NCBI GenBank assembly: GCA_026400815.1 | Contig: JAPLOI010000077.1 | Location: 62,001-126,000, forward strand | Length of the DNA stretch: 64,000 nt | From: Alphaproteobacteria bacterium | Lineage (GTDB): Bacteria > Pseudomonadota > Alphaproteobacteria > Acetobacterales > Acetobacteraceae | Direction: 5' to 3' | Part shown: in pieces, positions 14,666 to 40,861 of the stretch | Layout of the letters: each line of letters starts with the position of its first letter | Numbering within the stretch: position 1 is the stretch's first letter | Program-made: the position numbers and the translations under genes | Notes under the pieces: generated by a model | Told to the model about the DNA's origin: nothing | Seen by the model: the letters and a program-made list of their open reading frames with translations, nothing else | The model's database searches: none

Positions 14666-15016
14666 ACCCTGGCCCCCGGCGGTGGCGGCATAGTGGCGTT
14701 TGCCGGAACAACCACCGCCGCAGTCACGGCATGACGACCCAGCGTCCCCGCTGCGCTGTCCTGGCCGAAGGGGCCGTGGGCCGCGCCGCCCCGGCCCTCG
14801 CCCGGGGCAATGGCTGCGTAGTGCGCTTCGTGCCGCACACCGCGCCGGCCGCGCGGGACCAACTCTGGTCGAACGCGCCGAGGTCCGCCCATGGGGTGTC
14901 CCATTCCGCGATACCTGTCGCGCCGGGTGGACACCCCGGCGCGCCTGCCGTAACAGGCCATCGCGTGCGGCCGTCCGGTCGCCGACTCTTCCACCGCCTC
15001 GCCCGGACACGCCGCC
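14666..15016. other. 351-bp gap without a gene, containing a perfect hairpin
   Basis: No reading frame here has recognisable protein content. The clearest structure is a perfect nine-base inverted repeat, CGCGCCGGG (14919-14927) and CCCGGCGCG (14935-14943), with a seven-base loop TGGACAC and no T-run. It is unusually long for this compact region and may be the remnant of a lost gene or a leader for the TTG-started permease gene downstream. Confidence 0.45.
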
Positions 15017-15775
15017 TTGGACATTGCCACACTTCTGCTTCTCGCCGTTGCTGGCTTCGCTGGCGGCGTCATCAACGCTTTGGCCGGCGGCGGAACGCTG
15101 GTCACCTTTCCTGCCCTGGTCGGCCTCGGCCTGCCGCTGAAGCTGGCCAATGCCACCAGCCAGGTGGCGCTGTGGCCCGGCCGCCTCACTTCGGTGATGG
15201 CCCAGCTGAACGACTTCAAGCAGCTCGGCTCGCGCGCCTGGTCCAGCATCGCGCTCGGGCTCGTCGGCGGCTTCCTCGGCGCCCAGTTGCTGATCGTGAT
15301 GGACCCGAAAGTGTTCCGCGCCCTGGTGCCGTGGCTCATGCTGTGCGCCACGGTGGTGTTCGCGCTTTCGCCCACGATCACCAAGTGGCTCACCGCCAGC
15401 GGCCAGGGCAAGCGCTCCATGCCGATGCAGGTTGCCGGCCGCTTCGTGGAACTATTGTTCTGCATCTATGGCGGCTTCTTCGGCGCCGGGCTCGGCGTGT
15501 TCCTGATGGCCGGCTACGCCATTGCCGGCATCGAGAACGTGAAGCAGACCAACGTGCTCAAGAACATGATGGGCATGGTCATCACCACCACCTCCGCGCT
15601 GACCTTCATCCTGCGCGGCGAGGTCAACTGGCACGCTGCCACGCCGATGCTGGTGGGCGCCCTCGCTGGCGGCTTCGCCGGCGGCACTCTGGCGCGGGTG
15701 ATCCCCGCCGCCTGGCTGCGCGGCGTGGTCACCGTCGGCGCCTCAGCCCTAACCCTGTGGTATTTCGTCGCCTGA
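15017..15775 (+). CDS. TauE/SafE family membrane permease
   Basis: A 252-residue membrane protein with about eight predicted helices in two similar halves. The first half has the hallmark AGFAGGVINALAGGGTLVTFPALVGLGLPLKLANAT. The second half has the matching GGFFGAGLGVFLMAGYAIAG. This family exports sulfite, sulfoacetate or related organosulfur anions, though many members are unassigned. The start is a TTG at 15017 because no ATG precedes the conserved segment; the ribosome site is weak. It is preceded by a 351-bp gap and followed by a repeat element. Confidence 0.88.
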   Translation: MDIATLLLLAVAGFAGGVINALAGGGTLVTFPALVGLGLPLKLANATSQVALWPGRLTSVMAQLNDFKQLGSRAWSSIALGLVGGFLGAQLLIVMDPKVFRALVPWLMLCATVVFALSPTITKWLTASGQGKRSMPMQVAGRFVELLFCIYGGFFGAGLGVFLMAGYAIAGIENVKQTNVLKNMMGMVITTTSALTFILRGEVNWHAATPMLVGALAGGFAGGTLARVIPAAWLRGVVTVGASALTLWYFVA

Positions 15776-15778
15776 GCC

Positions 15779-15884
15779 TAGAGCGGTAGCCGACCTGATA
15801 GACGGTCGGCCACCATTCTAGCTCTTTGTTTTTGCGAGCAACTTAAGCCGATGGGATGATTCCATCCGGTCTGCTGTTGCTCTA
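15779..15884. repeat. 106-bp intergenic element bounded by TAGAGC/GCTCTA
   Basis: The gap between the permease and the Sel1-repeat gene is filled by an element beginning TAGAGC (15779-15784) and ending with its inverse GCTCTA (15879-15884). Inside are a seven-base hairpin GCCGACC/GGTCGGC (15789-15795 and 15804-15810), a T-rich stretch, and GATGG-N7-CCATC (15850-15866). The right end supplies the stop codon of the Sel1 gene. The composition and nested repeats are those of a REP- or MITE-like mobile repeat; it would also act as a terminator between the convergent genes. Confidence 0.6.
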
Positions 15885-18839
15885 ATGCGTCGCCAGCCGG
15901 CGCAGCCATTCCTTGGCGGTGCATGAGCCCGCCGCCGCCGCGATCCGGAACAGCCGCATTGCCTCCTGCGTGTTCTGCTGCACGCCCCAGCCATGGTGCA
16001 GCATCACCGCCAGCTCCGCCGTGGCACTGATGGAGCCGTTCTCCGCCGCCCGGCGCAGCAATGCCACCGCCTGCCGGTCATCGGCCACGGAGCCGCGGCC
16101 CGGCTGCAACTGCATCGCCAGCGTGAAGTCGTACAGGGCCAGCAGGCGCTGGATGCGCGTCTCGCCTTCCAGCCGCAGCGCCTGCTGGTACAGCCGCAGC
16201 GCCGCGCCCAGGTCCGGCGCGGTGGCGATGCCCTCATAGGTCATGCGCGCCGCCGCCCGTGCCGCGCGTGGTTCGTTTTGCTCGGCCGCGCGCAGGTAGA
16301 GCGACAGGGCCAGCGCCTCGTCCTTCGCCACGCCTTCGCCGGTTTCATAGAGCCGCCCCAACGCCAGCTGCGCCTGCGGATGCCGGCGATCCACCGCGCG
16401 CAGGTACCAGGATGCGGCCTGCTCGATATCGCGCGGCACGGCGCGGCCGGCCTCATGGAATACGCCCAGGCGGAACTGCGCCTGCGCCTCGCCCCGGTTG
16501 GCCGCGCGCCGGTACCAGGGCAGGGCAGCGTCGTCGCTTGCCGTCACGCCGTCGCCGGTCTCGTGCATGGAGCCGATGCGCCGCATCGCCTCGGCATTGC
16601 CGCGGTCGGCGGCCTGGTGCAGCCAGCGCAGCGCTTCCTCCAGGTTGCGGAACACGCCGCGGCCCTCGGCATGCGCCACACCCAGCGCCAGCATCGCCCC
16701 GGCATGGCCCTGGGCGGCGGCGCGGCGATACCACTCCAGCGCCCGCACCTCGCTGGCCGGTGTGCCGCGCCCGGCGGCCGTCATTGCGGCCAGGTTGGCC
16801 TGGGCCTCCGCCATGCCGCGATCGGCCGCGCGCCGAACCCAGCTGAAGCCGGCCGCCTCGTCCTTGGCCACACCCAGCCCTTCGGCCAGCATCAGCCCGA
16901 TGCGGTTCTCCGCCGGTGCGAAAGCCTGGTCAGCGGCGCGGCGATACCATTGCAGCGCCGCCTCGCGGTCCTGCGCCACGCCCTCGCCACGATCGTACAG
17001 CCCGCCGAGGTTGAACTGCCCCGCCGGCAATCCCTTGTCGGCCGCGCGCCGGAACCAGATCGCCGCCTGCTCCGGCTGCGGCGCCATGCCGCGCCCGGCT
17101 TCGTACATCAGCCCCAGCGCGTTCATCGCCCCGGGATCGCCCTTTTCCGCCGCCGCCATGAATTGCCCGAAGGCCTCCGCGTCGTCGCGCGGCACGCCAC
17201 GGCCATCAAGGTGCAGGAAGCCCAGTGCCACCCGCGCCGAGGTGTGCCCCTGCGCTGCCGCGCGCGCGTACCACAGCGCTGCCGCCACATCGTCCTGCGC
17301 CCCGCCCAGCCCCTGCGCATAAGCCCGCGCCAGCACATACTGCCCGTTCGGATTGCCGATCTCGGCGGCGCGCTGATACCAGTAGAGCGCCCGGCTGGGA
17401 TCGGGCTGGCCCAGCATCGTGCCCTCGTACAACGAGCCGAGATTGGCCGCCGCCACCCCGTTGCCCTGGTCGGCCGAGGCCTCGAACAGCGCCCGCGCGC
17501 GCACCGGGTCTTTCGGCGTGTCGCGCCCGAAGGCGAGCATGAAGCCCAGATTGTTCTGCGCCACCGCCGCACCCTGCGCCGCGGCGCGGCCGTACCACTC
17601 CATCGCCTGCGCCACGTCGCGCGGCACCCCGGTGCCGTTGTCGTACGCCAGGCCCAACCGCACCTGGGATGCCGCGAGCCCCTGTTCCGCCGCCCGCCGA
17701 TACCAGCGCAGCGCAGCCTCCTGGTCGCGCGCCGTGCCCAGCCCACCCTCGAGCCGCACCGCGAATTCGTGCTGCGCCCCGGCATGGCCCTGCTCGGCGG
17801 CGGCGCGGAACAGCGTGGTCGCAATCGTGTCGTCGCGCGCAATGCCGCGCCCGGCCGCCACCATCCGCGCCAGCAGGAAACGCCCGTTGGAATGGCCGCG
17901 CTCCGCCGCGCGCTGCATCCAGCGCACGGCCTCGGCATCGTCCTGCGGCACGCCCAGACCTTGGGCCAGCACCCGGCCCCAATCGGCCTGTGCTGCCGGC
18001 TCGCCCTTCTGTGCCGCGCTGCGATAGGCGGCCGCCGCTGCTTCCAGGTCGCGCGGCATGGCGCGCCCGGCCTCCAGGAAGCTTCCCAGCCGCCATTCCG
18101 CCACCGCCATGCCCTGCGCCGCCGCGTTGCGGTACAGCGCCAGCGCCTCGGCATCGCGTTCCGGCGTGACGGGCGGGCGGGCCAGCAGGTCGGCCAGCCG
18201 TACCTTGGCCACCGCGAAATCCTGCGCCACGGCGCGGCGATACCAGCTTTCCGCCTCCGCCACGTTGCCGGCGCGCTCCAGCGCCAGCCCCACCGCATCC
18301 TCCGCGGGCGGGAAACCGCGCTCGGCCGCGCGCCGATACCAGCGCAGCGCTTCCGCCTCGCTGGCCGGCACACCGAGCCCGCGCAGATACATCGCGCCGA
18401 TCGTGAACTCGGCGGGCGCATGCCCGGCCTCGGCCGCCTGGGTCAGCAGCTTCAGCGCCGCCGCCTCGTCGCGCGGCACGCCGCGGCCTTGTAGCAGCAG
18501 GTTGCCCAGGTTGAACGCCGCCGCCGGATGCCCCAGCGCCACCGCCCGCTCGAAAAACTGGATCGCTGCTGGGATGTCGGTGGGCGTGCCCTGCTCGCCC
18601 ATCATCAGCATGCCCATGGCATTGGTGGCCGCCGGATGGCCCAGCGCCGCCGCTGCGGCAAAGGCGCTGCGCGCCTCCTCCGGCTGGCGCGCGATCATCG
18701 CGGTCATTCCGCGCCGATACGCGTCCTCCGCCTCCCCGGCGGGGGCCGTGGCCGCGGAAGGCGGATTCGGTTGCGCCACCGCCGGAAGGGGCAGGGCGGC
18801 CAGCAGCAAACCAGTCAGGGCGGCGGGCAACTTCACCAT
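15882..18839 (-). CDS. Large secreted Sel1-repeat protein
   Basis: A 985-residue protein with a signal peptide (MVKLPAALTGLLLAALPLPAVAQ) followed by an almost unbroken array of Sel1-like repeats of 36 residues, roughly 25 in number. Each resembles the pattern A-x-x-W-Y-R-R-A-A-E-x-G plus G-x-G-V-x-x-D. These repeats form alpha-solenoids that scaffold protein-protein contacts, often in the periplasm or at the envelope. ATG 18839 is chosen as it begins the signal peptide; the frame is open much further but only as a shadow of the next gene. It ends inside a repeat element. A partner cannot be named. Confidence 0.9.
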   Translation of the reverse strand: MVKLPAALTGLLLAALPLPAVAQPNPPSAATAPAGEAEDAYRRGMTAMIARQPEEARSAFAAAAALGHPAATNAMGMLMMGEQGTPTDIPAAIQFFERAVALGHPAAAFNLGNLLLQGRGVPRDEAAALKLLTQAAEAGHAPAEFTIGAMYLRGLGVPASEAEALRWYRRAAERGFPPAEDAVGLALERAGNVAEAESWYRRAVAQDFAVAKVRLADLLARPPVTPERDAEALALYRNAAAQGMAVAEWRLGSFLEAGRAMPRDLEAAAAAYRSAAQKGEPAAQADWGRVLAQGLGVPQDDAEAVRWMQRAAERGHSNGRFLLARMVAAGRGIARDDTIATTLFRAAAEQGHAGAQHEFAVRLEGGLGTARDQEAALRWYRRAAEQGLAASQVRLGLAYDNGTGVPRDVAQAMEWYGRAAAQGAAVAQNNLGFMLAFGRDTPKDPVRARALFEASADQGNGVAAANLGSLYEGTMLGQPDPSRALYWYQRAAEIGNPNGQYVLARAYAQGLGGAQDDVAAALWYARAAAQGHTSARVALGFLHLDGRGVPRDDAEAFGQFMAAAEKGDPGAMNALGLMYEAGRGMAPQPEQAAIWFRRAADKGLPAGQFNLGGLYDRGEGVAQDREAALQWYRRAADQAFAPAENRIGLMLAEGLGVAKDEAAGFSWVRRAADRGMAEAQANLAAMTAAGRGTPASEVRALEWYRRAAAQGHAGAMLALGVAHAEGRGVFRNLEEALRWLHQAADRGNAEAMRRIGSMHETGDGVTASDDAALPWYRRAANRGEAQAQFRLGVFHEAGRAVPRDIEQAASWYLRAVDRRHPQAQLALGRLYETGEGVAKDEALALSLYLRAAEQNEPRAARAAARMTYEGIATAPDLGAALRLYQQALRLEGETRIQRLLALYDFTLAMQLQPGRGSVADDRQAVALLRRAAENGSISATAELAVMLHHGWGVQQNTQEAMRLFRIAAAAGSCTAKEWLRRLATH

Positions 18840-18895
18840 CTCGTGAGCATAGCGGCCCCCGGGGGGGCGGCGAAACCGCAAAGACAGCGCCGTTC

Positions 18896-20089
18896 CTATT
18901 GCCTCTCCGAGTTGTGTTCCGGCCCCGCGCCGGCCGCATGCCGATCCACCAGCGCGGCGACCGTTCCCGCGGCATAGCAGGCGGCCCCGAACAGCGGTGC
19001 CGCTGCCGTGCCCAGCGCATCGGCCAAGGCGCCGGCCAGCACCGGCCCCAGCAACTGACCCAGCCCCAGCGCCGCCGTGGCCACGCTGAACGCTCGCGCA
19101 TAATCCGCCGCCGAACTGCGCGTGCGCGCCGCCGCCGTGATCAGCGCCGGGATCGCCGCCATCCCCAGCCCCACCAGCGCCGCCCCCGCGAACGCTGCCA
19201 CCGCGCCGGGCAATGCTGCCACCGCCGCCCCGCAGGCCGCCAGCCCCATCGCCCCGGGCAGCGCGAAGGGCCGCAGCCGCGCCCGCCCCAGCACCCACAG
19301 CGTCAGCAGGCTGCCCGCCAGCGTCGCCGCCCCCACGGCGCTCCACGTCGCCATCACCACCCCGGTCGCCGCCCCCGCCGCAGCCAGCTTGGCGCCGGCG
19401 AAGGTGGCATAGGCGATGTAGCCCAGCCCGAAGCAGAAATACGTCCCCACCAGCCAGGCCCAGCGCGGCGACGCCACGGTCGCCAGCCGGAACCCATCCC
19501 CGCCGGAGGCCGCGGGCGCCGCGCGCGGTGCCGGAAACCCGAGCGCCAGCACCAGGGCCGCCAGCCCCGCCGCCACGAAGGCCAGCCGCCACAACCCCGG
19601 CGCCAGCAGCCAGGGCACCGCCAGCCCGCAGCCCAGCACCGCTGCGGCCATCCCCGTCCAGATCAACACGCTCGCCTGCATGCGCGCGCTCTCGGCGATG
19701 CCCCCCAGCACGGTCACCAGGATCGCGATCACACCCCACCCGCCGCCAAGCCCGGTCAGCAGCCGCCCGGCGCCCAGCACCCACGGCCCCGCCACCGCAT
19801 CCCCCGGCGCCGCCGCACACAGCACGGCACCCGCCACCACCAGCCAATGCCCCAGCTGGCCGAGCCCGCGCAGCCCCAGGCGCGGCATCAGTGCCGCCCC
19901 GGTCAGCGTGCCCAGCAGATATCCCCCCAGATGCACCGCGTTCAGCACCCCGGCCGCGGTGTAGCCGAGCCCGAGTTCCCCCCGCAGCGACGGCAGCACC
20001 ACGCCATAGCCGAACCGCGCCAGCCCGATATGCAGCGCCGTTCCCAGCGCCCCCCAGGCCAGCAGCCGGATCGGCAGGGCAGGGGCCAT
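18896..20089 (-). CDS. MFS transporter (YbfB/YjiJ-like)
   Basis: A 397-residue, twelve-helix major facilitator carrier. The N-terminus ALHIGLARFGYGVVLPSLRGELGLGYTAAGVLN matches the YbfB/YjiJ branch, where ARFGY is a conserved feature of helix 1. The usual loop 2-3 signature is replaced by GYLLGTLTGAALMPRLGLRG, and it is rich in Ala and Gly throughout. The start ATG 20089 overlaps the end of the adjacent SDR gene on the same strand, so it is probably co-transcribed with the two SDR genes. Substrate unknown; a link to the SDR substrate is plausible but unproven. Confidence 0.87.
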   Translation of the reverse strand: MAPALPIRLLAWGALGTALHIGLARFGYGVVLPSLRGELGLGYTAAGVLNAVHLGGYLLGTLTGAALMPRLGLRGLGQLGHWLVVAGAVLCAAAPGDAVAGPWVLGAGRLLTGLGGGWGVIAILVTVLGGIAESARMQASVLIWTGMAAAVLGCGLAVPWLLAPGLWRLAFVAAGLAALVLALGFPAPRAAPAASGGDGFRLATVASPRWAWLVGTYFCFGLGYIAYATFAGAKLAAAGAATGVVMATWSAVGAATLAGSLLTLWVLGRARLRPFALPGAMGLAACGAAVAALPGAVAAFAGAALVGLGMAAIPALITAAARTRSSAADYARAFSVATAALGLGQLLGPVLAGALADALGTAAAPLFGAACYAAGTVAALVDRHAAGAGPEHNSERQ

Positions 20090-20856
20090 TACTCCACCGC
20101 CGGCGCGTCGCCCGCCATGCCGAAGGCCTGCCAGCCGCCATCCACGTTCAGCACCACGCCGGAGATGTAGCTGGCCGCCGGCGAGGCCAGGAACCAGATC
20201 GCCTCCGCCATCTCCTCCGGCGTGCCCAGCCGCCCCAGCGGCGAGCGCCGGGCGATCGCGGAGGTATCCACCTTGCCCTCCTGCTCCAGCTTGGCCATCA
20301 GCGGCGTGCGCACATAGCCTGGCGCGATCGCGTTCACCCGGATGCCGCCGCGCCCCCATTCCACCGCCATGGACCGCGTCATCGAATGGATCCCCGCTTT
20401 CGCCGCGCCATAGGCGTTGCGTCGCGGCAGCCCCATGTTCCCCGCCAGCGAGCCGAGGTTCACGATCGCACCCCCTCCCTGCGCGAGCATCGCCCGCGCC
20501 GCCTCGCGGGAGGCGACGAAGGTGCCCTGCAGGTGGATCGCCAGCAGCTTCATGAAGAACGCGGTCTCCTGCGCCAGCGTCGGCGCCATGGAATCCGGGA
20601 TGCCGGCATTGTTCACCAGCACGTCGATCCGCCCCAGCCGCGCCAGCACCGCGGCCACGGCGACGACCACCTGCGCCTCCTCGGCCACATCGCAGCCCAG
20701 GCCGAGATGTGCCGGCCCCAGCTCCGCCGCCCGCGCCTCGGCCGCGTCGGCGCGCAGATCGGCAATCGCCACCCGATGCCCGCCCGCCGCGAACCGCCGC
20801 GCCGTCGCCCAGCCGATGCCGTCCGCCCCGCCGGTGATGAGAACAACCGGTATCAC
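20089..20856 (-). CDS. Short-chain dehydrogenase/reductase (SDR)
   Basis: A 255-residue classical SDR that oxidises or reduces a hydroxyl/carbonyl with NAD(P). Visible motifs are TGGADGIG (nucleotide loop), NNAG at about residue 84, the catalytic NLGSLAGNMG Ser and YGAAK, and a C-terminal Asp-Gly-Gly. The start is a GTG at 20856 that overlaps the stop of the preceding SDR gene (GTGA), so the two were translationally coupled. It shares a strand and a one-base junction with the MFS gene. Likely role in catabolism of an alcohol or sugar; exact substrate unknown. Confidence 0.88.
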   Translation of the reverse strand: MIPVVLITGGADGIGWATARRFAAGGHRVAIADLRADAAEARAAELGPAHLGLGCDVAEEAQVVVAVAAVLARLGRIDVLVNNAGIPDSMAPTLAQETAFFMKLLAIHLQGTFVASREAARAMLAQGGGAIVNLGSLAGNMGLPRRNAYGAAKAGIHSMTRSMAVEWGRGGIRVNAIAPGYVRTPLMAKLEQEGKVDTSAIARRSPLGRLGTPEEMAEAIWFLASPAASYISGVVLNVDGGWQAFGMAGDAPAVE

Positions 20857-21594
20857 GCGTCGAACCCCGGCCGCGGGATCTGCTGCATCGTGATCTGCGC
20901 CACCCCGCCATCCACGATCAGATCCTGCCCCGTCACATACCCCGCCCGCGGCGAGGCGAAGTAGAGCACCGCATCCGCGATATCCCCCGGCACCCCATAG
21001 CGCTTCAGCGGCGCCAAGCTGGCCCGCGCCGCCGCCACCCCTTGCGCCCGGTAGAACGCTTCCGACATCGGCGTGCGGATCATCCCGGGGCTGACGGAAT
21101 TGCTCCGTACGCCCATCGGCCCCCATTCCAGCGCCAATTGCCGGGACAGCATCGCCACCCCTGCCTTGCCCGGCGAATACGCGCCGGACTGCCCCTGTGG
21201 GAACGACGCGGCGATGGAGGCGATATGCACCAACGACCCCGATTTTCGCTCCAGCATCCCCGCCCCGAAGGCCTGTGCGCACAGCAGGTACCCCCGTCCC
21301 CAACGGCCCCGGCCGCAGGATGCCGGCATTGTTCACCAACACGTCCGCCACCCCCAGCTGCGCCGAAACCGCCTCGCACGCCGCACGCACCGAAGCCTCG
21401 CTGGAGGTATCGCACGCCACCCCCACGCCCCCGATTTCCGCCGCCGCACTGGCCGCCGCCGCGCCATCCAGGTCCAGCAGCGCCACAAGCGCGCCCTGCG
21501 CCGCAAACGCCGCCCCCACCGCGCGCCCGATCCCGCCGGCCCCGCCGGTTACCACGCACACCTGGCCCGCAAGCCCCAGCCACGCATCGGCCAT
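20853..21594 (-). pseudogene. SDR gene interrupted by a frameshift and short deletion
   Basis: Two parts of one SDR lie in different frames. The N-terminal half from ATG 21594 (MADAWLGLAGQVCVVTGGAGG, then NNAG) runs to about 21300. The C-terminal half, with YLLCAQAFGAGMLERKSG and the active-site YSPGK, is read in another frame down to the stop at 20853. At the junction (about 21288-21305, GGGGACGGGGGTACC on the minus strand) roughly 15 residues expected between GPLG and YLLCAQ are missing, including the conserved Asn of helix 4. This is either a true deletion or an assembly error in a G-rich tract. If real the protein is non-functional. Confidence 0.75.
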
Positions 21595-21720
21595 CGCCGT
21601 TTCCTCCGCCCTTTTGCAGAAACGTGACAGCCGCGCCGCGGCGGCGCAACGGTCACAAAACTGTTGCCGTGCATCGTTGCGCTATGTTGCGCTAACCTGC
21701 CGCAAACCAAGGGGGCCACA

Positions 21721-22626
21721 ATGACCGACCAGCTTTCCGCCAACCCGCCCGCGCCGCTCACGCAGCTCGACATCGACCAGCGCGTCTTCGACCTCTACGA
21801 CGAATACTGCCACGGCCACATGGACCGCCGCAGCTTCTTCGCCCAATGCGCCGCCATCGTCGGCGGCCTGGCCATGGCCCAGGCGCTGATCCCCAACTAC
21901 GCGCTCGCGCAAACCATCAGCTTCACCGACAGCCGCATCAAGGCCACCTACGTCACCTACGACAGCCCCGGCGGCAGCTCCGGCAAGATGCGTGGCTACC
22001 TCGTGCAGCCCACCGGCCAGGGCCCGTTCGGTACCGTGCTGGTGATCCACGAGAACCGTGGCCTGAACCCCTACATCGAGGACGTCGCCCGCCGCGCCGC
22101 CGCCGAGGGCTTCCTCGCCCTGGCGCCCGACGGCCTGTTCCCACTCGGCGGCTACCCCGGCAATGACGACGATGGCCGCGACATGCAGTCCAAGCTCGAA
22201 CAGCCCAAGCTGCGCACGGACATGCTGAACAGCGCCAAGTGGCTGAAGGCCCATGCGCTGTCCAACGGCAAGCTCGGCGTTACCGGCTTCTGCTGGGGCG
22301 GTGGCACCACCAACTGGCTCGCCGCGACAATGGGGCCAGACATGCAGGCCGGCGCGCCATTCTACGGCGCTGCCGCCGCGGCGGACACGGTGGCCAACAT
22401 TCGCGCGCCCCTGGTGTTGCACTTCGCGGAGAGCGACGCAGGGATCAACGGCCAGTGGCCCGCCTACGAAGCCGCGCTCAAGGCTGCCGGCAAGACCGCC
22501 GAAGGGCACATCTACCCGGGCACCCAGCACGGCTTCCACAACAACTCCACCCCGCGCTACGAGGAAGCCGCGGCCAAGCTGGCGTGGGATCGCACGGTGG
22601 CGCTGTTCAACAGGACCCTAAAGTAA
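21721..22626 (+). CDS. Dienelactone hydrolase family protein, Tat-type leader
   Basis: A 301-residue alpha/beta-hydrolase. The catalytic Cys is C191 in GFCWGGG, with Asp in FAESDAGIN and His in GTQHGFHNN, the triad of dienelactone hydrolases, which open dienelactones from chlorocatechol breakdown and related esters. The N-terminus is unusual: about 35 polar residues precede DRRSFFAQCAAIVGGLAMAQALIP, a twin-arginine (RRxFF) motif followed by a hydrophobic segment and ALA-type cleavage site, which suggests export of the folded enzyme by Tat. ATG 21721 is preferred; the upstream extension is not conserved. A T-rich palindrome follows. Confidence 0.87.
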   Translation: MTDQLSANPPAPLTQLDIDQRVFDLYDEYCHGHMDRRSFFAQCAAIVGGLAMAQALIPNYALAQTISFTDSRIKATYVTYDSPGGSSGKMRGYLVQPTGQGPFGTVLVIHENRGLNPYIEDVARRAAAEGFLALAPDGLFPLGGYPGNDDDGRDMQSKLEQPKLRTDMLNSAKWLKAHALSNGKLGVTGFCWGGGTTNWLAATMGPDMQAGAPFYGAAAAADTVANIRAPLVLHFAESDAGINGQWPAYEAALKAAGKTAEGHIYPGTQHGFHNNSTPRYEEAAAKLAWDRTVALFNRTLK

Positions 22627-22754: not shown

Positions 22755-24581
22755 ATGATGCGCAACGACCCCCTCCGTACCGAACACGTCACCACGCGAG
22801 ACGGCATCCGCCTCGCCACGGACATCCGCCTGCCCGCCGGCCCCGGCCCCTGGCCCGTGGTGCTCCAGCGCACCCCCTACGGCCGCCACCTTCCCGGCGG
22901 GCGTGAGAACACCGCCGCCAACCCCGCCATCGCCACGCCCGACGAATTCGCCGCCCCCTTCCTCGAAGCCGGCTACGCCACCGTCGTGCAGGATACCCGC
23001 GGCCGCTTCGGCAGCGACGGTGCCTTCGTGAAATACCTGACCGACGGCGAGGACGGCGAAGACACCATGCGCTGGCTCCTCGCCCAGCCCTGGTGCAACG
23101 GCCAGGTCGTCACCCTCGGCCTCTCCTACGGCGCCCACACCCAGGCCGCGCTCGGCTGCCTCAATCCGCCCGGCCTCCTCGCCCAGGTGCTGGATTGCGG
23201 TGGCTTCCTCGATGCCTGGCATCACGGCGTGCGCCAGAACGGCGCCTTCGAACTCCGCCAGGCCACCTGGGCCTACAAGCAGGCGTTGCTCTCCCCGGAA
23301 GCCCAGGCCAACCCGGTGATGAAAGCCGCGCTGGAAGCGGAGAACATCTTCGACTGGTTCACCCTGCTGCGCCGCGGCATCCTCTGGAAACCCGGCCACT
23401 CCCCCCTGCGCCACCACCCGGACTACGAGGCCTACCTCTTCGACCAATGGCGCCACGGCGCGCGGGACGCATTCTGGACCCAACTCGGCATCAGCACCCA
23501 ATCCTGGCACGAGACCTACAGCCAGGCCGCCGTGGTCCACCTCTCCGCCTGGTTCGACCCCTACACGCTGGGCGCCATCGGCAACTTCCAGGGCCTGCGC
23601 GCCCGCGGCCCGCAATACCTCATCCTAGGCCCCTGGACCCACGGCGAACGCAGCCGCCGCTTCTCCGGCGATGTCGATTTCGGCGCGGCCGCCCCCATCG
23701 ATTCCTGGTGCGGAGACTGGCGCCAATACCGCCTGCGCCTGTTCAACCACGCCACCCAGGGCACCCCGAACCCCGAACCCCCCGTGCGCCTCTTCGTCAT
23801 GGGTGGCGGCACCGGCATGCGCACGCCGGAAGGCCGCCTCGACCACGGCGGCCACTGGATCACCGCGCAGGATTGGCCGCTCCCCGGCACCGCCTTCACG
23901 CCCTTCCACCTGCACGCCAACGGCACCCTCGCCGAAGCCCGGCCCGCCGCCGATGCCGCGCCGCTCAGCTATGATTTCGACCCGTCGAACCCCGTCCCCA
24001 CCATCGGCGGCAACCACTCCTCGCTGGATCCCGTCGCCCATCCCGGCAGCTGGAACCAGGTGGAATCCGCAGATTTCTTCGGCTGCACGCCCCCCTACCT
24101 CCCGCTCGCCAGCCGGCCCGACATTCTGTTCTTCCAGACCGAGCCGCTCGCCGAACCCCTCACCATCGCCGGCCCCATCGAGCTGGACCTCCACGTGTCC
24201 ACCGACGGCCCAGACACGGACTTCACCGCCAAGCTGATCGACGTTCATCCCGCCAGCGCCGACTACCCCGGCGGCTACGCCATGCTCCTGGCCGACAGCA
24301 TCGTCCGCCTGCGCTACGCCGAAGACCCCGCCACCCCGCGCCTGCGCCAGCCCGGCGAGATCGTGCACCTGAAAGTGACCATCTTCGCCACCGCCAACCT
24401 CTTCCTGCCCGGCCACCGCATCCGGCTGGACATCTCGTCGTCCAACTTCCCGCGCTTCGATGTGAACCCGAACACCGGAGAACCCGAAGGGGCCGCCACC
24501 CGCCGCCGCGTCGCCCGCAACACGGTGTTCGCGGATGCCAGCCGCCCGAGCCGGGTCCTGCTGCCCATCATCGCCAAGTAA
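22755..24581 (+). CDS. CocE/NonD family hydrolase (X-prolyl dipeptidyl-peptidase-like)
   Basis: A 608-residue serine hydrolase. The N-terminal alpha/beta domain has GLSYGAH with nucleophile S124, and the C-terminal half is the jelly-roll typical of the S15/CocE group (FHLHANGTLAEARP, LDLHVSTDGPDTDFTAKLIDVHP, RIRLDISSSNFPRFDVNPNTG). Such enzymes cleave esters or amides, for example cocaine esterase and glutaryl-acylases. ATG 22755 (MMRND) is chosen; the earlier TTG only adds MQHHPP-type residues. No signal peptide is evident. Repeats flank both ends of the gene. Substrate unknown. Confidence 0.9.
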   Translation: MMRNDPLRTEHVTTRDGIRLATDIRLPAGPGPWPVVLQRTPYGRHLPGGRENTAANPAIATPDEFAAPFLEAGYATVVQDTRGRFGSDGAFVKYLTDGEDGEDTMRWLLAQPWCNGQVVTLGLSYGAHTQAALGCLNPPGLLAQVLDCGGFLDAWHHGVRQNGAFELRQATWAYKQALLSPEAQANPVMKAALEAENIFDWFTLLRRGILWKPGHSPLRHHPDYEAYLFDQWRHGARDAFWTQLGISTQSWHETYSQAAVVHLSAWFDPYTLGAIGNFQGLRARGPQYLILGPWTHGERSRRFSGDVDFGAAAPIDSWCGDWRQYRLRLFNHATQGTPNPEPPVRLFVMGGGTGMRTPEGRLDHGGHWITAQDWPLPGTAFTPFHLHANGTLAEARPAADAAPLSYDFDPSNPVPTIGGNHSSLDPVAHPGSWNQVESADFFGCTPPYLPLASRPDILFFQTEPLAEPLTIAGPIELDLHVSTDGPDTDFTAKLIDVHPASADYPGGYAMLLADSIVRLRYAEDPATPRLRQPGEIVHLKVTIFATANLFLPGHRIRLDISSSNFPRFDVNPNTGEPEGAATRRRVARNTVFADASRPSRVLLPIIAK

Positions 24582-24589
24582 GGAAGCAC

Positions 24590-24700
24590 GTTCTTTTTTG
24601 AAAAAAAGAACTAAAAAACTTTTATTCGTTTGCGGCTCGCCCTAAAGCGGGCGCAAACGAATGAAGTCTTTTTTGTTTCTTTTTTCTTCAGAAAAAAGAA
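24590..24700. repeat. T-rich palindromic repeats, copies 2 and 3, facing each other
   Basis: Copy 2 is GTTCTTTTTT (24590-24599) with AAAAAAGAAC (24602-24611). Copy 3 is TTCTTTTTTCT (24677-24687) with AGAAAAAAGAA (24690-24700), preceded by GAAGTCTTTTTT. Between them ATTCGTTTGCG (24624-24634) and CGCAAACGAAT (24652-24662) are also exact inverses. The whole 110-bp block is thus a nested inverted pair that ends two convergent genes and will terminate transcription from both sides. Confidence 0.85.
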
Positions 24701-24713
24701 GACCCTTGCTTCC

Positions 24714-25775
24714 CTAGATCAACTTCAACCGTCGCAGCACCACCAGCATAACGACGACGGATAGCACGATCAGCCCCATCGCCGCGGCAAAGCCGTGGCT
24801 GTGTTCGTCCACGAACGGCAGCCGCGCCACGTTCATGCCGAAGATGCCTGAGATCAGCGTGGGCGGCATCAGCAGCGCGGTGATCACCGACAGCAGCGCC
24901 AGCCGCTGGTTGGTCTGCGCCGTCTGGCGCGAGGCGATTTCGTCCTGCAGCGCATGCGCCCGGTTCTGCAGCGCGCCGATGTCACCCGCCAGGCTGTCCA
25001 GCCGTTCGCCCACATAGGCGCATTCCTCCAGCGCATCGGGCGTGAACCAAGCCGGCGGATTTGCCCCCAGCTCGCGCAGCAGCCCCCCCAGTGGTGGCAC
25101 CAGCCGCGCCATCCGTGTCGCATCGCGCCGCACTAGCCCCAGCGCCTCGAACTCCTGTTCGTCGCGGTCCAGCAGCGCATCCTCCACGAAATCCAGCCGG
25201 TCCCCCATGCGCCGCACCAGCAGCGCCATGGAATCGGCCAGCCCGTCGATCACCGCGTCGAACAGGTTCAGCACCCCGGGAAAGCGCCGCCCCGCCAGCA
25301 GCGCCTCGTGCAGCGCGCTCAGCGTGCGCACCTGCCGCCGTCGCGCGGTCACCAGCCGGCGCGGCTGCATCGCGAAGCGCCACGTGGTCATCTTGCGCGG
25401 ATCGGGCTCGGCGCCATGAATGAAGTCGGGCGCCATCCCAGCGATCACCTCTGGTTCGGCGGAAAGCTGGATCATGTCCGCCGGCTCCTCCAGCAGTTCC
25501 AGCGCGTCCGGCGGCAAGCCCGGCAAGGACTGCAGTACTGCGGTGCTGCGCGTATCGGCCAGGTCGAAATGCAGCCAGACCCAGCCCTCGTCCGGCGGCG
25601 GCGCCATCGCCGCGGCATGGTCCAGCCGGGTCGCCCGCCCTTCGGCGTCGAACCGATAGGCCCAGATCAGGCAGGGCACCCCCGCCACGGCCAATCCGGA
25701 ATCCGCAATCCCATCCTGGGTCGTCAAGGTCATCATCATCACCGCAATCGCAACGATACCACAGCACGCCAGCAT
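24714..25775 (-). CDS. CorA-type divalent cation transporter (CorA/ZntB family)
   Basis: Magnesium, cobalt or zinc channel. The product has a large cytosolic N-terminal domain, a long helix (about residues 200-285) and two C-terminal transmembrane helices. The hallmark GMN motif appears as IFGMNVARLP at the end of the first helix, and WALHFDL-type WVWLHFDLAD is near the N-terminus. This layout and the length fit ZntB as well as CorA; the GMN rather than GIN favours CorA-like permeation. ATG codons at 25739 (MMMTL) are a more likely start than 25775. It is convergent with the CocE gene across a composite repeat. Confidence 0.85.
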   Translation of the reverse strand: MLACCGIVAIAVMMMTLTTQDGIADSGLAVAGVPCLIWAYRFDAEGRATRLDHAAAMAPPPDEGWVWLHFDLADTRSTAVLQSLPGLPPDALELLEEPADMIQLSAEPEVIAGMAPDFIHGAEPDPRKMTTWRFAMQPRRLVTARRRQVRTLSALHEALLAGRRFPGVLNLFDAVIDGLADSMALLVRRMGDRLDFVEDALLDRDEQEFEALGLVRRDATRMARLVPPLGGLLRELGANPPAWFTPDALEECAYVGERLDSLAGDIGALQNRAHALQDEIASRQTAQTNQRLALLSVITALLMPPTLISGIFGMNVARLPFVDEHSHGFAAAMGLIVLSVVVMLVVLRRLKLI

Positions 25776-40109: not shown

Positions 40110-40289
40110 CAGTGGAATCCCGGATGGTCCTTACGAAGACATTTCATGGAGGTGAGGTAAATGTCACGTAAAATGGGGATAAAATTCTGCCGCGGGCTGG
40201 CCGGGTGGGGCTGGGCATAAGGCACGAGTCGTGGCCGCGGGGTGCGGGGTTTTCGGGACGGATTCGGGGTGACTCGGGCCGTGTTGCGG

Positions 40290-40655
40290 CTATGGGGGCG
40301 CGCGGGCGATCGGCGACGGGCACGGGGCGGGCGCGTGGTGGCCCGAGAGGGCCATGCCGCGGTTGGGCTGGCCGCGCATGAGCCAGCCGATCTCCGCGCG
40401 CAATTGCAGGAGGCGGCGAAGAGTGTAGGGATTCTGGGCGGAGTCCAGGTCTTCGGTGAGGTCGGTGTTGGTGGAGAAGAGCCAGTCCTGGCGCAGGCGG
40501 CACAGCGTGTGGCGCGGGGCTTCCGCCTTCGAAAAGGCGGCGAGCAGGGAGAGCAGCAGGAGCTTCAAGGCCGCCGGAATCCGGGCGTGCAGAATCGCCC
40601 GCGCCCAGGGGCGCGGTGCATCTGCTTCGCTCGGAGTGGCGGGTTGATGGGTCAT
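40290..40655 (-). CDS. Hypothetical protein, 121 residues
   Basis: No family is recognised. From ATG 40655 (MTHQPATP) the product has a polar Pro-rich start, a Leu-rich segment (IPAALKLLLLSLLAAF, about residues 34-49) that may be a membrane-facing helix, a mid-region LCRLRQDWLFSTNTDLTEDLDSAQNPYTLRRLLQLRAEIGWLMR that predicts helices, and a Pro-rich tail. No clear ribosome site is seen. Coding support is moderate; the opposite strand is also open. It sits between the porin and the dehydratase genes. Confidence 0.4.
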   Translation of the reverse strand: MTHQPATPSEADAPRPWARAILHARIPAALKLLLLSLLAAFSKAEAPRHTLCRLRQDWLFSTNTDLTEDLDSAQNPYTLRRLLQLRAEIGWLMRGQPNRGMALSGHHAPAPCPSPIARAPP

Positions 40656-40861
40656 CACCGGGAAGTGTCGCACAGGCAACACCGGTGGAATAGGAAAAAA
40701 TTATGGATTTTGGCGATTTAACGCGCGTTGACGGCAATTAACGCTAACGGACGCCTGGGGCCTGCCCGGCGAGCGGCGTGGACCCAGTGAAGGATGGCGG
40801 AACCGCTACGCGTTCCGCCCTACGCGGGGTGGTGAAGACGCGGACTCATGAAGTCTTTTTG

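Follow-up and report, generated by a model that had tools for sequence, protein, structure and literature searches.

SDR1, the first gene of a three-gene set on the minus strand, has probably been inactivated by a real and recent deletion and would be an ordinary young pseudogene, as judged from comparison of its sequence with intact orthologues. The set consists of SDR1 (21594-20853), SDR2, and a YbfB-type MFS transporter, in that order. It lies in a window that comprises the whole 64,000-nucleotide stretch analyzed, positions 62001-126000 of contig C18 in a 5.1 Mb draft genome that is 97.55% complete. An initial annotation of this DNA described two well-conserved SDR halves in different frames, about 15 residues missing near their junction, and a second SDR that is intact and coupled to the first, all of which our analysis bears out. 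Pfam assigns the N-part of SDR1 (21594-21289) to PF00106 (profile positions 2-92) and the C-part (21299-20856) to PF13561 (profile positions 106-235), in a different frame. In a profile scan of the genome, the locus likewise appears as two separate matches. The GTGA overlap that couples SDR2 to SDR1 is also present in orthologous loci L005 and L006. The features are collected in Table 1.

Table 1. Features of the SDR1-SDR2-MFS set and its flank (window coordinates).
Feature	Coordinates	Strand	Basis
SDR1 N-terminal part: Rossmann nucleotide-binding half with TGGAGGIG and NNAG, original frame	21295..21594	-	PF00106, 2.8e-16; alignment with intact relatives
SDR1 C-terminal part, shifted frame: tetrad Ser, Tyr, and Lys columns and original stop codon	20853..21294	-	PF13561, 3.8e-35; tetrad columns
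Deletion junction: 44 bases of relatives missing between 21295 and 21294	21287..21304	-	Alignment
SDR2, intact; GTG start overlapping SDR1 stop (GTGA)	20089..20856	-	PF13561, 4.3e-67
501-codon ORF: SDR1 N-part, about 150 out-of-frame residues, and complete SDR2	20089..21594	-	ORF reading
MFS transporter, YbfB type, third gene; TAATG overlap with SDR2	18896..20089	-	PF06779, 1.5e-27; overlap from sequence
Most diverged patch, covering the SDR1 start and the region between genes; maximum of 18 window-only substitutions in 100 bases	21541..21721	.	2038 sliding windows
Dienelactone-hydrolase family ORF, divergent; flank for synteny	21664..22626	+	PF01738, 1.1e-39

The break was defined by alignment with six same-genus relatives, metagenome-assembled genomes labelled Acetobacteraceae, Rhodospirillales, or Asaia (loci L005-L010, corresponding to genomes G007, G001, G004, G002, G005, and G003). 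SDR1 differs from all six by a single 44-base gap at the junction. Because this gap equals 14 codons plus two bases, the frameshift and the roughly 15 absent residues are one event. The data are also compatible with a 45-base loss between two ACG triplets combined with one extra G in the next G run. The plain 44-base loss has no microhomology and the 45-base version requires the extra G, and both points count against a real deletion. Junction repeats amount to three bases at most. A hairpin-driven deletion was rejected, since 141 bases of L006 around the site, treated as single-stranded DNA, fold no better than shuffled sequence (z 0.58). A homopolymer or base-calling error was rejected as the sole cause because 44 bases are missing. 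Such an error could account for at most one junction G, and even with that G corrected, the SDR1 enzyme would still lack one residue of its catalytic tetrad, the Asn.

The Asn-Ser-Tyr-Lys tetrad is part of the SDR active site and has a role in activity. In 25 chosen orthologues, the corresponding residues N113, S141, Y154, and K158 are invariant. The deleted segment corresponds to residues 101-115 of the intact orthologue and thus includes N113, which lies within helix 103-131 of the predicted orthologue structure (mean pLDDT 88.5), together with the first half of that helix. A classical SDR carries a Rossmann half with TGxxxGxG and NNAG, which the N-part retains, and a full tetrad in one frame; here the N113 column is deleted, and Ser, Tyr, and Lys stand in the other frame. 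We propose that ancestral SDR1 encoded an ordinary short-chain dehydrogenase using NAD(P) within the SDR1-SDR2-MFS set, and that one 44-base deletion in this lineage would have removed the tetrad Asn and half a helix while shifting the frame. The gene would then yield no enzyme. Apart from the locus itself, the sequence in the genome that best matches the SDR1 C-part is only 45% identical, so no close spare copy is seen, and metabolic readings of the gene set should count SDR1 as lost in this lineage. Among 85 PF13561 matches in the genome, the three partial ones inspected (on C33, C50, and C55) each lie within a continuous ORF, and none is a further split SDR gene.

From the best 80 of 313 passing loci, the first 46 (L005-L050) were examined. 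SDR1 is uninterrupted and stop-free from end to end in 43 of these; the other three (L023, L034, and L043) are cut by contig ends. The deleted segment is whole in 45 of the 46, L043 starting within it, and the break is absent from all visible sequence of the 46 loci. In L007, the contig end is reached just before the SDR1 stop, and the gene is otherwise intact. SDR1 is present in six of eight same-genus genomes, with background similarity only in G006 (68% complete) and G008 (96% complete). In G008, the flanks of the set are kept and about 230 bases stand in place of window 18742-21688 (L165, G008:C137 2150-2420), so that SDR1, SDR2, and the MFS gene are all missing from between conserved flanks; a search of this genome for SDR1-like sequence gave nothing above background. 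SDR1 is thus dispensable within the genus.

The substitution pattern bears on the age of the break. Singleton changes in SDR1 number 17 silent to 5 replacement in the window and 23 to 7 in the three relatives together, and neutrality would give about 2.4 replacements per silent change for a gene of this composition. There is no excess of replacement changes in the window gene, and the break therefore looks recent. If 15% of the branch had been unselected, 10.6 replacements would be expected, and five or fewer has P = 0.047. Under simple assumptions, and with counts that are small and partly unpolarised, the break would fall roughly within the last 15% of the branch or less.

The break adjoins the most diverged patch in the comparison. 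The top 100-base interval among 2038, at 21601-21700, has 18 window-only changes against a median of 1. Window-only sites make up 33 of 422 in 21300-21721 and 188 of 11,927 in the surroundings (Fisher P 7e-13), and they are not accelerated elsewhere in the set (7/425 in the C-part, 9/558 in SDR2, and 11/1199 in the MFS gene). At the DNA level, identity to the three closest relatives is about 95.5% for the C-part and 90-93% for the N-part. With G002 as the outgroup, window-only sites are clearly window-derived in only 10 of 18 intergenic cases and 7 of 15 N-part cases; 4 and 6, respectively, are common to G002, and the remainder are ambiguous in polarity. This polarity counts against a simple acceleration on the window side. 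The pattern would be explained if a tract had entered by recombination from an unsampled lineage and the deletion sat at its edge. No donor emerged when 120 genomes were searched with 21295-21715: outside the genome, the best match was the G001 orthologous site (89%), and within the genome at E 1e-8 the single match was the site itself. A second patch with at least 12% window-only substitutions lies at 14781-14901, between two plus-strand genes.

The initial annotation had left open whether the break reflects recent gene decay or an assembly error in a G-rich run. Recent decay is favored by the single deletion, the 43 unbroken loci, and the lack of a replacement excess, whereas an error in the G run fails as the sole cause because of the 44 absent bases. 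A misassembly or collapsed strain variant at this locus is possible; a wrong contig join, or a variant from a co-occurring strain collapsed into the assembly, would mean that the genome's own copy of SDR1 is intact. We consider such a local artefact unlikely. It would fit a draft of 89 contigs and a junction at the edge of a diverged block with many window-only substitutions, which assembly or strain mixing could produce, and the GeneTack survey (PMC3711429) expects many singleton frame transitions to be sequencing errors. However, indels were surveyed between the window and G001, G004, and G007, over 41,038 bases where two or more of these relatives align (all three in 28,164), and with gene positions called roughly. 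Across the 41,038 bases, no frame-breaking indel within a called gene other than the 44-base loss distinguishes the window from all relatives that cover the site. (BLAST split this gap into two 22-base gaps for G001, which was read from the full gap list.) Generally poor assembly is therefore unlikely, and the same result weighs against a local error. Moreover, junction repeats of three bases or fewer would be too short for the usual k-mer join, and the window-only changes of the N-part are mostly silent (11:4), like those of real coding DNA. Among 154 distinct gaps, three events are specific to the window when it is set against G001, G004, and G007. Besides the 44-base loss, they are a one-base gap at 21618, before the start of SDR1, and an intergenic repeat near 15778-15885 (104 bases versus G001 and G004, 64 versus G007). 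A few small gaps relative to both covering relatives (e.g., 40186-40188 and 40786) fall between called genes.

The frames themselves bear on how SDR2 is made and underlie further readings of the locus. The initial annotation's description of the locus can be extended by a 501-residue ORF, since the frame of the SDR1 N-part is that of SDR2 and is stop-free until 20089. On the preferred deletion reading, ribosomes entering at the SDR1 start would pass the overlapping stop and read to the end of SDR2, which would then be made as the tail of this product, from its own GTG start, or both. It is a long shot that the out-of-register deletion thereby fused the two coupled genes, so that SDR2 is now produced within a 501-residue protein that also contains a defunct nucleotide-binding half and some 150 out-of-frame residues; if true, the locus would offer a view of frame capture as it fuses genes in GC-rich operons with open alternative frames. 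That the deletion produced a working fusion of the SDR1 N-part and SDR2 maintained by selection is very improbable. The 501 codons contain no internal stop, and longer proteins with two SDR parts make up a curated family (NCBIfam NF005067, 524 positions). However, the corresponding frame is already open in L005 and L006 (260 codons, 0 stops), which makes the open frame here a by-product of base composition. The middle of the product is out-of-frame sequence, and its single-sequence fold has a mean pLDDT of 38.8, too poor to inform on structure. The best Pfam stretch of the ORF is SDR2, and two complete SDR domains are not found in it, the first stopping after about 97 residues. Least credible of all is a programmed frameshift or other recoding that keeps SDR1 working. 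The G-rich junction and the open out-of-frame region would suit it, but the 43 orthologous loci that are fully visible all lack a frame transition, and a product that bypassed the shift would still lack the tetrad Asn and half a helix. A real loss-of-function deletion is the reading we prefer.

The intact enzyme and its neighbors allow a limited view of what was lost. Among the best 25 of 230 matched NCBIfam families, none is above cut-off for the intact orthologue, the top being NF005559 at 211 versus 215 bits; SDR2, at 227.2 bits, clears the cut-off of this broad subfamily model. In 8 of the 46 loci, SDR1 is followed within 105 bases by the gene for a protein with 57% or higher identity to SDR2; some of the other loci end just after SDR1. 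A FAD_binding_2 flavoprotein is encoded upstream of the SDR1-SDR2 pair in all three of those eight that were scanned (L031, L039, and L048, whose records carry the labels Pseudooceanicola, Ahrensia, and Methylobacterium), a hint that the set may be catabolic. Literature searches on freshwater Acetobacteraceae genomes and on frame-capture fusions contributed nothing to these readings.

Structured repeats occur elsewhere in the window. An intergenic repeat of about 135 bases at 24575-24718 has many copies in G001, G004, G007, and G008 and folds far more stably than shuffled sequence (z about -7). The structured repeat of about 104 bases at 15775-15890 (z about -6) is missing from the corresponding site in G001 and G004, and in part from that in G007, and has copies elsewhere in relatives. 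A stretch of about 480 bases at 40200-40704 recurs many times, mostly at 70-86% similarity, elsewhere in three relatives, on other contigs. Rfam at gathering scores gave no match in the entire window.

The locus can be compared with several known systems. NF005067/PRK06484, which we take to be tandem SDR proteins, likewise have two SDR-derived parts in one ORF, and SDR2 matches the first half of the family with 304 bits (cut-off 713); here, in contrast, only part of the first SDR domain is present, and out-of-frame sequence comes after it. In programmed frameshift genes, the transition is conserved in homologues, whereas that of SDR1 is not (43 fully visible loci of 46). The singleton transitions of the GeneTack survey (PMC3711429) resemble SDR1 in that the transition lies inside one Pfam domain, is confirmed by homologues, and is not common to the homologues examined. 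The survey expects many single frame-broken genes with intact homologues to reflect sequencing error and not real indels, whereas a 44-base loss is no homopolymer error. A recent deletion pseudogene should have few secondary lesions and the substitution pattern of a constrained gene, as SDR1 does, and intact orthologues with the break in one lineage, as seen in the 43 of 46 loci and in the six same-genus relatives with the segment. Among Salmonella pseudogenes with a single inactivating mutation, short deletions predominate (141/346; Kuo and Ochman 2010, PMC2916853). The young pseudogenes of that study are like SDR1 in having one deletion of less than 20% of the gene, conserved neighbors, and a break in one lineage among the genomes examined; they differ in that the shifted frame of SDR1 runs open into the next gene, with no early stop.
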